From: Planctomycetes bacterium MalM25
GTDB lineage: Bacteria; Planctomycetota; Planctomycetia; Pirellulales; Lacipirellulaceae
Direction of reading: 5' to 3'
NCBI GenBank assembly: GCA_007745835.1
Contig: CP036424.1
Span: forward strand, 3,335,968-3,399,967
Length of the DNA: 64,000 nucleotides
Shown here piece after piece: positions 7,126-26,013 of the stretch. Both the position numbers and the translations under genes were made by a program. Within the stretch, counting starts at the first letter, position 1; every line of letters begins with the position of its first letter. The notes beneath the pieces are model-generated. The model was given only the letters and a program-made list of their open reading frames with translations, was not told where the DNA came from and made no database searches.

Positions 7126-8049
7126 ATGCCGCAGCCACCGGAAAGCGAGTCGCCCGACACGCCGCCCCCCGCGGTCGGCTTGTCGCTGTTCCGCGGTGAC
7201 GACCCCGTCGAGACCGCGCCCGACACGCCCGCGCTAACGCCGGAGCTCTCCGAGCTGCTGGACGCGTGGCAATCGGCGACCGCTCGGCTCGAGAAGACCC
7301 ACGCCCAGCTCCGAGACGAGGTCTCCCGGCTCTCGACCGAGCTGGAGATCAAGAACCGAGAGCTGGCTCGCAAGAACCGGCTGGCCGACCTCGGCGAGAT
7401 GGCGTCGCACGTCGCTCACGAAGTCCGCAATAGCCTGACCCCGATCACCCTGTACCTCAGCCTCCTGCGACGCAGCCTGACCGGCGACGCTCAAGGACTC
7501 GAGGTGCTCGGCAAAGCCGAAGCCGGTTTCACCGCCCTGGAGGCCACCGTGAACGATCTGCTCGCATTCAGCGCCCACCGCCAGCCGCACGCTTCCAATT
7601 TCCTCGTTGCGGAACTGATCAACGAGGTGACCGGCGCACTCGCGCCGCAGCTCGAAGCGCAAGCGGTCGAAGTCGATCTCGACGTCCCGCCCCAGGCGTT
7701 GCTGTGGGCCGACCGCGAGATGGTCCGCCGAGCCGTGCTGAACCTGGTGCTCAACGCGCTGGACGTGATGCCCCAGGGTGGCGAACTGGTCGTCACCGGA
7801 TACGAGGGCGTCGAAGCGTTCGAGCTGGAGATCGCCGACAGCGGCCCCGGACTCACCGACGAACAACAGGCACGCCTCTTCGAGCCCTTCTTCAGCACGA
7901 AGGAGACGGGCACCGGACTCGGACTCTCGGTCGTCGCGCATGTGGCCGAAGCCCACGGCGGCTCGATCGAGGGCCAGAACTGCCCCGAAGGTGGCGCCGC
8001 GTTCACTCTCTCCCTGCCCCGCAACACCGCCAACCGAGCGGCCGCATGA
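7126..8049 (+). CDS. flrB: Soluble sensor histidine kinase of the FlrB/FleS/NtrB type
   Basis: A 307-residue cytoplasmic kinase without membrane segments. A coiled coil (about 50-88) leads into HisKA with the phosphoacceptor His98 in SHVAHEVRN. HATPase_c follows: N-box LNLVLNALD with Asn206/Asn210, G1 box DSGPG (238-242), F box FEPFF (252-256) and G2 box GTGLGL (262-267). There is no recognisable PAS domain, so the sensed signal may be a state of the basal body, as inferred for FlrB and FleS. The stop overlaps the start of the next gene by 4 bases (ATGA), which ties it to that sigma-54 activator as a cognate pair. The gene symbol is by functional analogy. Confidence 0.88.
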   Translation: MPQPPESESPDTPPPAVGLSLFRGDDPVETAPDTPALTPELSELLDAWQSATARLEKTHAQLRDEVSRLSTELEIKNRELARKNRLADLGEMASHVAHEVRNSLTPITLYLSLLRRSLTGDAQGLEVLGKAEAGFTALEATVNDLLAFSAHRQPHASNFLVAELINEVTGALAPQLEAQAVEVDLDVPPQALLWADREMVRRAVLNLVLNALDVMPQGGELVVTGYEGVEAFELEIADSGPGLTDEQQARLFEPFFSTKETGTGLGLSVVAHVAEAHGGSIEGQNCPEGGAAFTLSLPRNTANRAAA

Positions 8050-9473
8050 CCCCGAATCGCGCGGACAACCCGACAGCGAACGGACGCGTCCTCGTGGTTG
8101 ATGACCACGCGACGGCGCGCGAGTCGGTCGCCGACGTGCTGCGCCACGTCGGCCACGAAGCGACCGCCTGCTCGTCCGGCGCCGAGGCGCTCGTCGCCCT
8201 GCGTGACGGGGCGTTCGACGTCGTTGTGACCGATCTGCAGATGCCCGGCATGAGCGGGCTGGAGCTGATCCGCGAGATCGAACGCCGGCGGTTTGGCGTG
8301 CAGGTGCTCATGGTCACGGCGCACGCGAGCGTCGAGACCGCGGTCGAAGCGATGCGGCACGGCGCGTTCGATTACCTCGAGAAGCCGTACGACGTCGATC
8401 GCCTGGAAGCCTCGGTCGCCCGGGCTTTGCAACGCAAGAGCCTGCAGACATCCGAGTCAGTCGCCAAAGAATCCGGTTCGTCCTCAGCGCCGGTGATGAT
8501 CGGGTCGAGCGCCGCGATGCAATCGCTCCGTGAGCGGATCGCCCGGGTCGCCGCGACCGACGAGACCGTCCTCATTCAGGGTGAGTCGGGCGTCGGGAAG
8601 GAGTTGATCGCCCAAACGCTCCACGCGCTGAGCGGCCGCCAAGCGGGCCCGATGGTGAGCCTCAACTGCCCGGTCCTTTCAGAGCAGCTCACCGAGAGCG
8701 AGCTGTTCGGCCACACGCGCGGCGCGTTCACCGGCGCCGACGCCGATCGGACGGGTCGTTTCGAGCTGGCCGACGGCGGCTCGCTGCTGCTCGACGAGGT
8801 GACCGAGATCAACCTCGGCCTGCAGGCCAAGCTGCTGCGGGTGCTCCAAGAGAAGACTTTCGAGCGCGTCGGCTCGAGCGAGTCTCAGAACGTCAACGTC
8901 CGCGTGCTGGCGACCACCAACCGCGATCTCAACGAGGAGGTCTCGGCGGGTCGGTTCCGCGAGGATCTGTACTACCGTCTGGCGGTCGTGCCGCTGCAAG
9001 CTCCGCCGCTGCGCGAGCGGGGTGAGGACGTCCTCGAACTCGCCGAGCACTTCCTCACTCAAGCGAGCGAGCGCCTCAGCCGTGAACGCCTGACGCTCGA
9101 CGCCGGCACGCGGGACTTGTTCCTGTCGCACCGCTGGCCCGGCAACGTCCGCGAGTTGCACAACGTGGTGACCCGCGCCTGCGTGCTAGCGGACGGCCCA
9201 ACGGTGTCGGCCGACTTGGTGCGTCCTTGGCTGCTGCGCGACGACGTGGAGTCCGCCGCGTCGGGTATGACCGATGGGCACGCCACGCTGCCGATCGGCT
9301 CGAGCCTCGCTGAGGTCGAAAAACAGATGATCCTCGCCACCCTGGCCCGCTTCGAAGGCCACCGGCAGAAGACCGCGGAGGCCTTGGGCATCGGCGTCCG
9401 GACGCTCAGTGGCAAACTGCGTCAGTACGGCGTCGCCCCCGGAGAGAAAGACTTCACCTCGAGAGCCGCCTAA
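8046..9473 (+). CDS. flrC: Sigma-54-dependent response regulator (FlrC/FleR/NtrC type)
   Basis: A 475-residue activator with all three expected parts. The receiver domain has Asp19/Asp20, phosphoacceptor Asp63 in VVTDLQMPG and Lys113. The AAA+ domain has Walker A GESGVGKE (179-186), the sigma-54-contacting loop GAFTGA (226-231), Walker B LLLDE (247-251) and FREDLYYRL. A C-terminal Fis-type helix-turn-helix follows (ATLARFEGHRQKTAEALGIG). All catalytic residues are present, so it should hydrolyse ATP to open sigma-54 promoters when phosphorylated. The obvious target is the -24/-12 promoter 126 bases after its stop, ahead of flgB. The ATG at 8046 overlaps the kinase stop. Confidence 0.93.
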   Translation: MTPNRADNPTANGRVLVVDDHATARESVADVLRHVGHEATACSSGAEALVALRDGAFDVVVTDLQMPGMSGLELIREIERRRFGVQVLMVTAHASVETAVEAMRHGAFDYLEKPYDVDRLEASVARALQRKSLQTSESVAKESGSSSAPVMIGSSAAMQSLRERIARVAATDETVLIQGESGVGKELIAQTLHALSGRQAGPMVSLNCPVLSEQLTESELFGHTRGAFTGADADRTGRFELADGGSLLLDEVTEINLGLQAKLLRVLQEKTFERVGSSESQNVNVRVLATTNRDLNEEVSAGRFREDLYYRLAVVPLQAPPLRERGEDVLELAEHFLTQASERLSRERLTLDAGTRDLFLSHRWPGNVRELHNVVTRACVLADGPTVSADLVRPWLLRDDVESAASGMTDGHATLPIGSSLAEVEKQMILATLARFEGHRQKTAEALGIGVRTLSGKLRQYGVAPGEKDFTSRAA

Positions 9474-23706: not shown

Positions 23707-24258
23707 ATGTCCGAACCGAAAGAAAAAGAAGCCAAGAAGTCGTCCGGCCTGATGGGCCTGGTCAAGGCGGTCGTGATCATCTGCGTGCTGGTCGTCGTCG
23801 AGATGGTCGGGGCGACCATGATGATCCCCTCCGCCGAAGAGACCGAGCAGCTCGCCCGCGAGCTGGTGCTCGCGGCGAACGGGCAGGAGGCGATCGCGGC
23901 GGAGGACGCCGAGGAGGCGGCCTTCTCCCCGGACGACGAGACCTTCGAGGTCATCCTGATGTCGGACAGCGTCACCCGCTTCAATCCAGAGACCGACGCC
24001 ACGCTGAACGTGCAGTTCACCGTGTACGGCGTGGGGATCCAAGAAGAGCGTGACCTTTTCAACGAGCAGTTCGAGTCGAACAAGAGCCGCGTCCACGAGC
24101 AGATCAACCTCACCATACACGGCGCCAGCACGTCCGATCTGGCCAGCGCCAACCTGGGCTTGATCAAGCGACAGATACTTGAGAAGACGAACCGGACCCT
24201 CGGGCGGCCGCTGCTGCGCGAGGTCGGTTTCACGAAGGTGAACTTCATCGAACGCTAG
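23707..24258 (+). CDS. fliL: Flagellar basal body-associated protein FliL
   Basis: FliL is a single-pass membrane protein that rings the stator and supports torque. The 183-residue product has a short basic tail, a membrane segment (MGLVKAVVIICVLVVVEMVG, about 15-34), an acidic linker, and the periplasmic domain ending LEKTNRTLGRPLLREVGFTK with VNFIER. It lies between motB and fliN, where fliM would normally come next. Confidence 0.88.
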   Translation: MSEPKEKEAKKSSGLMGLVKAVVIICVLVVVEMVGATMMIPSAEETEQLARELVLAANGQEAIAAEDAEEAAFSPDDETFEVILMSDSVTRFNPETDATLNVQFTVYGVGIQEERDLFNEQFESNKSRVHEQINLTIHGASTSDLASANLGLIKRQILEKTNRTLGRPLLREVGFTKVNFIER

Positions 24259-24316: not shown

Positions 24317-24967
24317 ATGGCAGACGATCCGCAACTCGGCCAGGACGATATCGAAGCGCTGCTCGCCGCCACCGGCGGTGGCGGTGGCGCGCCCGAAGCC
24401 GATCCGGAACCCACGCCGGCGGGCGATGCGGGTGGCGAGTTCTCACTGGGGCAGGACGAAATCGAAGCCCTTATGTCTGGGGATGGCCCCCCAGCCGCCG
24501 CCTCGACGATGGCGGCGCCAGCGGCGCCGGCCGCCACCGCGGCAGCTCCCGCGGGCCAAGTCGGCACGGCGGGCTCCGCAGCGAACGATGTCGAGCTGCT
24601 GCTCAACCGGGCCCAGGAAGCGATCGCCTCGATCGACGAAACCGGCTCCGAAATGCCCGAGGGGGTCGAGACCTTCCACCTCGAAAGCTTCGGAGGCTCG
24701 CCCGCCAACACCGACTCGGCGACGCTCGAGCTGGTGCGCGACGTCCAACTCGATCTGAAGATCGAGCTCGGTCGCACGCGGATGCCGCTCGAGGACGTGC
24801 TGCGGCTACGTCGCGAAGCGGTCGTCACGCTCGACAAGCTGGCCGGAGACCCAGTCGATGTCTACGCGAACGGACGTCTGATCGCCCGCGGCGAGGTGCT
24901 CGTGCTGAACGACAACTTCTGCGTGCGTGTCACCGAGCTCATCGTTGGCGACGCGGCGGTCGCCTAA
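24317..24967 (+). CDS. fliN: Flagellar motor switch protein FliN with two FliM-like N-terminal motifs
   Basis: A 216-residue protein with a C-terminal SpoA domain (about 138-210: VRDVQLDLKIELGRTRMPLE, VLVLNDNFCVRVTELI) that builds the C ring. The N-terminal 130 residues are unusual. LGQDDIEALL at 7-16 and LGQDEIEALM at 44-53 both match the FliM N-terminal peptide (LSQDEIDALL) that binds phosphorylated CheY. They are separated by Gly/Ala/Pro-rich linker. No fliM lies beside it; the gap to fliL is only 58 bases. The protein may serve both as FliN and as the CheY receptor, comparable in principle to FliY. The SpoA call is secure; the CheY role is inference. Confidence 0.9.
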   Translation: MADDPQLGQDDIEALLAATGGGGGAPEADPEPTPAGDAGGEFSLGQDEIEALMSGDGPPAAASTMAAPAAPAATAAAPAGQVGTAGSAANDVELLLNRAQEAIASIDETGSEMPEGVETFHLESFGGSPANTDSATLELVRDVQLDLKIELGRTRMPLEDVLRLRREAVVTLDKLAGDPVDVYANGRLIARGEVLVLNDNFCVRVTELIVGDAAVA

Positions 24968-25062
24968 CACGCGCGGTTGCCCTAGCGTCCGCACGCGGTC
25001 GCTTCTATAAGCCGAGGACTCGCCCCTTTTTGGGCGGTTTGGCTCAAGGAAGCGCCGACCCG

Positions 25063-26013
25063 ATGCCGACACGCCGTCGATTGCCGACACTGCTAGCGTT
25101 GCTCCTCGCGGGCGCCGCTACCCCTGCGCAGAGCGCTTCCGACTCGGACGTGCCCACGCCCTCGGCGATCACGCGACACCGCGCCGGCGCCGTCTCCGCC
25201 GGTCCGGCGGGCCTGCCGCGGCGTAGCGACCCGATGGTCGAGCCCGTGCTGTTCCAGAGTGCTGGCGTTGAGAAACCGATCGAAGAACCGGCGGCACTCC
25301 CTCCGAGAGCCCGGTCTCAGGAGCCAGCCGCCCCGCCAGCTTCTCAGCCTGCTGAGCCGATCGTCTTCGACGCCGCGCCAGCGGCTCCGATTCCCCAACC
25401 ACAAACGGCTCCGGCTCCTTCCGCCAGGGCGCCCGCTAATCCTGTCCCCGCAGGCCGGGCGTTGGGCGATCGACGCCCCTCCACCAAACGTCAGCCGAGG
25501 GCTTCCCAGACCGCGAACCCGCTGACGACGCTCCTCGAGTGGCGCCCCTCGTCGCGCACCCTCACGGCGACGGGTGGCGGGGTCGCGATCACGGTCGGTC
25601 TTGTCCTCTCGTTCACCTGGCTGCTCCGCAGCATGATGCCCAAATCGGCACGCCCCCTGCCCCGCGACGTGGTCGAGGTGCTCGGGCGCGCGCCGCTGGG
25701 CGGCAAGCAGACGACGCAGCTCGTGCGTGTCGGCTCGAAGCTCGTGCTGGTCGCCATCACGCCCGACGGCGCCGAGACGCTCACCGAGATCACCGACGCC
25801 GACGAAGTCGCCCGCCTGGTCGCCGCGTGCGACGCGAAGCGGGGCGCCGGTTCGACGGCCGAGTTCGATCAGCTGCTCCAACAGATGTCGGACGAACGGT
25901 CCACACCCGGCTTTCTCGACCGCGCCGCGAACGACGAGGTCGAGGCTTCGTTCGACCCGCGCTCGCTCGCCGCCGCCTACGCCAACACCCCCGGGGGGCG
26001 TGGCGATGGTTGA
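25063..26013 (+). CDS. fliO: Flagellar biosynthesis protein FliO
   Basis: FliO helps assemble the FliP ring of the export gate. The 316-residue product has a signal-like N-terminus (LPTLLALLLAGAATPAQSAS), a long Pro/Ala-rich periplasmic stretch (about 30-160), and one membrane segment (GGVAITVGLVLSFTWLLRS, 172-190). The conserved cytoplasmic domain follows: VVEVLGRAPLGGKQTTQLVR, KLVLVAITPDGAETLTEI. It is longer than most FliO because of the Pro-rich stretch. The start at 25063 is the ATG directly before the signal-like region. The stop overlaps fliP by 8 bases. Confidence 0.88.
   Translation: MPTRRRLPTLLALLLAGAATPAQSASDSDVPTPSAITRHRAGAVSAGPAGLPRRSDPMVEPVLFQSAGVEKPIEEPAALPPRARSQEPAAPPASQPAEPIVFDAAPAAPIPQPQTAPAPSARAPANPVPAGRALGDRRPSTKRQPRASQTANPLTTLLEWRPSSRTLTATGGGVAITVGLVLSFTWLLRSMMPKSARPLPRDVVEVLGRAPLGGKQTTQLVRVGSKLVLVAITPDGAETLTEITDADEVARLVAACDAKRGAGSTAEFDQLLQQMSDERSTPGFLDRAANDEVEASFDPRSLAAAYANTPGGRGDG

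Follow-up and report, generated by a model that had tools for sequence, protein, structure and literature searches.

The fliN gene and its N-terminal tail

The DNA analysed here (the window) is a stretch of 64,000 nucleotides from Planctomycetes bacterium MalM25, C1:3335968-3399967, and it includes a flagellar cluster in which a gene for FliN with an extended N-terminal tail stands between a gene in the fliL position and fliO (Table 1). The assignment to FliN is given by TIGR02480 (fliN, 98 bits, above the cut-off of 84.05). At E 0.001 the sole Pfam domain of the protein is PF01052, and neither the FliM-middle domain PF02154 nor a CheC-like domain is matched in it at that threshold. Within residues 1-138, stretches rich in Ala, Pro and Gly separate the copies of a FliM-type peptide. 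A sequence-only reading of this DNA had placed LGQDDIEALL and LGQDEIEALM on a SpoA-domain FliN, and we find positions, identity and domain as it gave them; of its further statement that fliN directly follows fliL, the gene order stands, and the name fliL is one of position, the upstream gene having no Pfam match at E 0.001. The cluster also holds, at window positions 7704-9473, an NtrC-type sigma-54 activator with receiver, AAA and Fis domains, which is likely a flagellar regulator.

Table 1. Features of the fliN locus, in window coordinates
Feature	Position	Strand	Basis
Upstream gene, fliL position	23707..24258	+	Named by position only
fliN, 216 aa, extended N-terminal tail	24317..24967	+	ORF; PF01052 and TIGR02480 matches
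FliM-type peptide copy 1, LGQDDIEALL, residues 7-16	24335..24364	+	17.9 bits against FliM-peptide profile
FliM-type peptide copy 2, LGQDEIEALM, residues 44-53	24446..24475	+	19.1 bits against FliM-peptide profile
Degenerate copy 3, SAANDVELLL, residues 88-97, merging into conserved segment (to residue 107)	24578..24637	+	Profile score, alignment
SpoA (FliMN_C) domain, residues 139-209	24731..24943	+	PF01052, E 3.2e-23
fliO, downstream of fliN	25030..26013	+	PF04347, E 3e-11

The copies were scored against a profile of 10 positions, built from 44 FliM peptides (25 distinct) out of 48 planctomycete FliM. None of 1000 composition-preserving shuffles of the FliN tail matches the best or the second-best motif score. 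Copy 3, which the sequence-only reading had not listed, scores 2.8 bits in this FliN and 19.0 bits in a relative (G357), where it reads VSQSDVEALL; it is a full-scoring copy in some relatives and otherwise possibly corresponds to FliN helix 1. The segment into which it merges is itself conserved: in an alignment of 40 FliN including this one, D91 is invariant and L95, L96, A99 and A102 are near-invariant within residues 91-107.

Within the genus, pN/pS computed over four genomes is 0.17 for the motifs together (0.24 for copy 1 and 0.11 for copy 2), 0.61 and 0.69 for the linkers, 0.06 for the SpoA domain and 0.22 for residues 91-107, and in the same four genomes the linkers also vary by gain and loss of residues. 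The motifs are under purifying selection and the linkers are drifting. A chance origin of the motifs is thus rejected on the strength of the shuffles, the conservation and the selection together. Named matches in public genomes come from Botrimarina hoheduenensis (68% identity) and B. colliarenosi (67%), with Blastopirellula marina also among the matches. A contig titled Candidatus Nealsonbacteria encodes a Pirellulales-like FliN at 51% identity and is probably misplaced in that assembly.

The peptide array across Planctomycetota

A census of the order Pirellulales was made by reading 147 FliN, taken from the stronger of the matches listed, where 185 of the 296 order genomes searched have a FliN match. 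At a motif threshold of 9 bits, which was set after the first profile scores were known, 78 of the 147 carry at least two motifs, a share that is probably overstated because weaker, unlisted and a few listed matches were left out. The full distribution is 41 FliN with no motif, 28 with one, 50 with two, 23 with three and 5 with four; seven FliN truncated at the end of a contig, none of which has more than one motif, are counted in the 147 and dropped when the total is 140. Of the 17 families sampled, 12 include a FliN that carries two motifs or more. A lack of conservation of the motifs in related FliN, which the earlier reading had named as one of two findings that would refute it, is not what the census gives, since they are repeated in many of these proteins. 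The FliN tail in Pirellulales is a fast-changing one that holds from zero to four peptides.

Across the 78 FliN with at least two motifs, the distance between copy starts has a median of 37 residues and a range of 23 to 107, and the 189 copies share a common pattern: position 3 is Q in 97%, position 5 is E or D in 97%, position 7 is E in 88%, position 9 is L in 96% and position 10 is L in 82%, with I, L or V at position 6 and variable residues at positions 2, 4 and 8. The likeness of these copies to the FliM peptide is partly by construction, because a profile derived from FliM picked them. Beyond the order, a match is present in 146 genomes, and 43 of their FliN were read. Of the 13 from another order of the same class, three have one peptide, five have two and five have none; of the 30 from outside the class, six have one, three have two and 21 have none. 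Some FliN of other Planctomycetota thus carry one or two peptides, as against up to four in Pirellulales. Four genomes of the same class (G024, G105, G194 and G291) encode a FliN-like SpoA protein and give no FliM match; these are possibly non-flagellar SpoA proteins.

FliM is encoded away from the flagellar cluster

The genome's single match to PF02154 (E 1.5e-64) lies at C1:4628800-4629372 on the 4.72 Mb contig, outside the flagellar cluster and about 1.2 Mb past the end of the window by contig coordinate. The FliM encoded there scores 291.6 bits against TIGR01397 (cut-off 219.6), and its N terminus reads MSDDVLNQSEIESLLGG, with LNQSEIESLL as its own peptide. The gene stands alone beside a proA-like gene, as judged by eye from the translation.

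The sequence-only reading was therefore right that there is no fliM in the window, and the absence of the gene from both cluster and window is what favours the proposal it drew from this, namely that FliN replaces FliM in a FliM-free switch. That proposal of a C ring working without FliM is overturned, on the other hand, by the genome-wide search for the FliM middle domain, which returned one full fliM with a peptide of its own, the other of the two findings that the reading had itself named as refuting it. Across the order, FliM is detected in 99 of the 102 FliN-bearing genomes searched (71 of 72 including this one, and 28 of 30), a count in which some matches are partial or weak, G304 being a fragment below the cut-off and G487 and G399 covering only part of the profile; the three genomes with no FliM match are G431 (87% complete), G458 (85%) and G441 (96%). 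We thus reject FliN as a substitute for FliM: for this genome the reading is refuted, and we give it practically no credence. What is seen looks like the addition of docking sites with the usual copy retained on FliM, rather than a replacement.

In four genomes of family f2 (G414, G513, G561 and G525), all with a motif-free FliN, the FliM peptide has R where Q is otherwise conserved (LSR or LNR).

Co-occurrence with CheA and CheY

The genome has a CheA at C1:3489512 (PF02895), in a block whose translations, judged by eye, comprise CheA, CheW, MCP, CheB and CheR. A lone receiver of 120 aa at C1:1084201-1084560 is the best candidate for CheY; it matches solved CheY structures from Vibrio at 4e-30 and from enterobacteria at about 1e-27. 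Several relatives have a CheA and the CheY orthologue on one contig, no more than about 6 kb from each other (e.g. G205 C69, G307 C9 and G331 C52).

The search for CheA (PF02895) was positive in two sets of order genomes, with 52 of 72 in one and 54 of 75 in the other. At least two FliN motifs are present in 69 of the 106 genomes with CheA, compared with nine of the 41 without (Fisher 2.8e-6), and four of these nine carry a close CheY. CheA is also present in 21 of the 41 genomes with a motif-free FliN and in 16 of the 28 with a one-motif FliN; the array is dispensable for chemotaxis.

For CheY, the set was of 75 genomes, namely every one of the 41 without CheA together with 34 hand-picked genomes that have it, divided post hoc by E-value to this genome's CheY into close (below 1e-50), mid (1e-30 to 1e-50) and weaker. 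At least two motifs occur in 25 of 25 close, four of 15 mid and five of 35 weaker genomes, so that the close class compares with the others as 25 of 25 with nine of 50 (Fisher 1e-12), in a class that partly measures relatedness, since membership is set by similarity to the CheY of this genome. Within families the close class again differs from the rest (Fisher 0.007 in f1, 1e-4 in f2, 0.036 in f3 and 0.0015 in the other families pooled). Five of the 35 genomes in which no CheY orthologue was found still have two or more FliN motifs.

Correction for relatedness was made with a FliM tree of 70 of the 75 genomes, which has several long branches and of which the supported branches were used. On average, independent pairs on this tree go the same way in 3.9 and the other way in 0.0 of 6 for close CheY (median p 0.125), in 4.9 and 0.0 of 9 for any CheY (median p 0.0625) and in 4.5 and 0.0 of 8 for CheA (median p 0.0625). 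On the short FliN tree, whose 98 columns are too few to resolve it, the corresponding averages are 1.7 and 0.0 of 3 for close CheY, 2.0 and 0.0 of 3 for any CheY and 1.6 and 0.6 of 6 for CheA. After tree correction the link between motifs and CheY runs in one direction but misses 0.05 on supported branches, so that phylogeny alone may account for it; the link is suggestive.

These tests bear on the possibility that the tail is an ancestral feature gained and lost with clades and without present function, its link with CheY reflecting shared ancestry. Values above 0.05 on supported branches speak for such hitch-hiking, and family f2 presents a block of motif-free FliN (26 of 44) of which most, 17 of the 26, come from genomes with CheA. 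Selection within the genus, however, distinguishes the motifs from the linkers, and the state of having two or more motifs changes at least 15 times along the FliM tree with, on average, no pair running against CheY; we thus regard an idle tail as very improbable.

The picture outside the order is mixed, in counts that leave out G137, a genome searched for CheY alone. In the other order of the class, all eight FliN with a motif accompany a CheY match of 1e-36 to 1e-41, and for the five motif-free FliN the best CheY match is no better than 1e-17, in genomes where the FliM match is absent (4) or weak (1) and the SpoA proteins may be non-flagellar. Outside the class, the counts cover 19 genomes searched for CheY. 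Where the CheY match is 1e-28 to 1e-33 (12 genomes), FliN is motif-free in nine and has one motif in three; where it is weaker (7 genomes), five are motif-free and two (G053 and G011) have two motifs.

The peptide of FliM behaves differently from the copies on FliN. At 9 bits or more it is kept in 23 of 23 close-CheY genomes, in 13 of 13 mid-CheY genomes and in 30 of 34 without a detected CheY orthologue, counted where FliM was read. It is thus the FliN copies, not FliM's own peptide, that track the presence of CheY. Either some of these genomes have a CheY that escaped detection, or there is a further role for the FliM peptide; its persistence there raises the question of what else it does and means that the peptide alone is no proof of CheY binding.

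The same persistence favours a reading in which the copies on FliN are elements of assembly, copied from helix 1 of FliN itself or from a FliM-N-like segment and docking on SpoA clefts, on FliH or on a neighbouring FliN, their likeness to a CheY peptide being due to shared ancestry or to a second function. The merging of copy 3 with the conserved segment fits such a reading, as does the Salmonella C ring, in which, according to the excerpt of PMC11528121 available, the α1 helices of FliN swap into SpoA clefts and an N-terminal stretch of FliM binds FliN. Elements of assembly should not track CheY, yet every genome of the close class has at least two motifs; moreover, the copies retain the LxQxEIExLL pattern, and a substantial share of the FliN read (41 of 147) do without any. 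We consider a role in assembly unlikely, though it is to be taken seriously.

Comparison with known CheY-binding peptides

In well-studied motors the docking peptide is carried by FliM, and by FliY where that protein is present. The FliN copies resemble the EIDALL docking peptide of FliM in their ten-residue pattern, in their place near the N terminus and in the variable linker that follows. They differ from it in being two and in being borne by FliN; across the order, position 6 is mostly I in the FliN copies and V in FliM, and the first residue is freer. According to the accessible part of PMC9126983, CheY-P binds FliM and FliY at their EIDALL motif, and the process has two steps, the N-terminal site collecting CheY-P for use by the middle domain of FliM.

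The nearest known architecture is that of FliY from Bacillus and Thermotoga, which likewise joins a FliN-type SpoA domain to an N-terminal FliM-type peptide (for Bacillus, as given in a partial text of PMC8809382). FliY has one peptide where this FliN has two, and it has between peptide and SpoA domain the CheC-like or FliM-middle domain that is missing here. The FliY model NF005995 reaches 97.2 bits against a cut-off of 218 and covers residues 105-209 only. An identity as FliY is thus rejected, the phosphatase domain being missing and the score below cut-off.

It has also to be considered that the copies bind a receiver in order to serve as a sink or another output, such as a buffer of CheY-P, a hand-over to a phosphatase, or a site for some other CheY-like regulator by which the motor is braked or tuned. 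CheY-like regulators that act on a flagellar motor are on record as a class (PMC5677366, in the portion available), and the genome holds six further small single-receiver proteins beside the CheY candidate. The co-occurrence seen, on the other hand, is with canonical CheY, the receiver examined, and a FliN that gives neither a CheC nor a FliM-middle match is not itself a phosphatase of the FliY kind. We judge such an output distinctly improbable.

In the open-licence literature searched we recognised no description of repeated FliM-type peptides on FliN, and since the search with peptide strings was uninformative this is weak evidence of novelty; on that literature, repeats of a FliM-type peptide in FliN, in company with CheY over much of an order, are new.

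A putative multivalent docking tail

The explanation that we hold to be the probable one, on sequence grounds, is that this FliN is an ordinary SpoA subunit of the ring with two extra putative docking peptides for CheY-P on a flexible tail, working beside a normal FliM. The tails of FliN would catch CheY-P, raising its local concentration at the ring, and the CheY-P so caught would be supplied to FliM and FliG at their switching sites. The C ring of Salmonella has FliG, FliM and FliN at 1:1:3 in 34 protomers (PMC11528121, partial text). At one FliM to three FliN there would be seven docking peptides per protomer (1 + 3 x 2) in place of one, the six extra peptides from FliN following from the assumption that the ratio is as in Salmonella. 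We infer the binding of CheY-P by the FliN copies, the flexibility of the tail, the subunit ratio and any effect on switching; the co-occurrence with CheY raises the likelihood of CheY binding, and with it that of avidity. In E. coli, a pull-down cited in PMC7355467 (seen in excerpt) found a fusion of CheY with the FliM peptide to associate with FliN, and a delivery of CheY-P to FliN is therefore plausible. The same excerpt reports for Thermotoga FliY an affinity for activated CheY no higher than for inactive CheY.

A bolder version would have the main CheY-P receptor of Pirellulales moved to FliN, with tails of two to four peptides acting as a multivalent trap that grows or contracts in step with each species' CheY, and with a CheY-independent role left to the peptide of FliM. 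This wider scheme we regard as conceivable, if doubtful. How CheY-P binding gives rise to ultrasensitive switching is an old question. Pirellulales offer a natural series for it, with anything between none and four extra peptides in FliN, in which the number of docking sites could be compared with switching between species, or altered without touching FliM.

A second SpoA protein in the genome

The genome encodes a further SpoA protein of 302 aa (PF01052, E 2e-17) at L032:7602-8510 on the minus strand, that is, at C1 about 562600-563510. It falls below the NCBIfam cut-offs for FliN and SctQ, and in it no FliM-type peptide was found. Close by, at L032:6410-7504, lies a cysteine-rich repeat protein made of CGCEPSCGC-like units.
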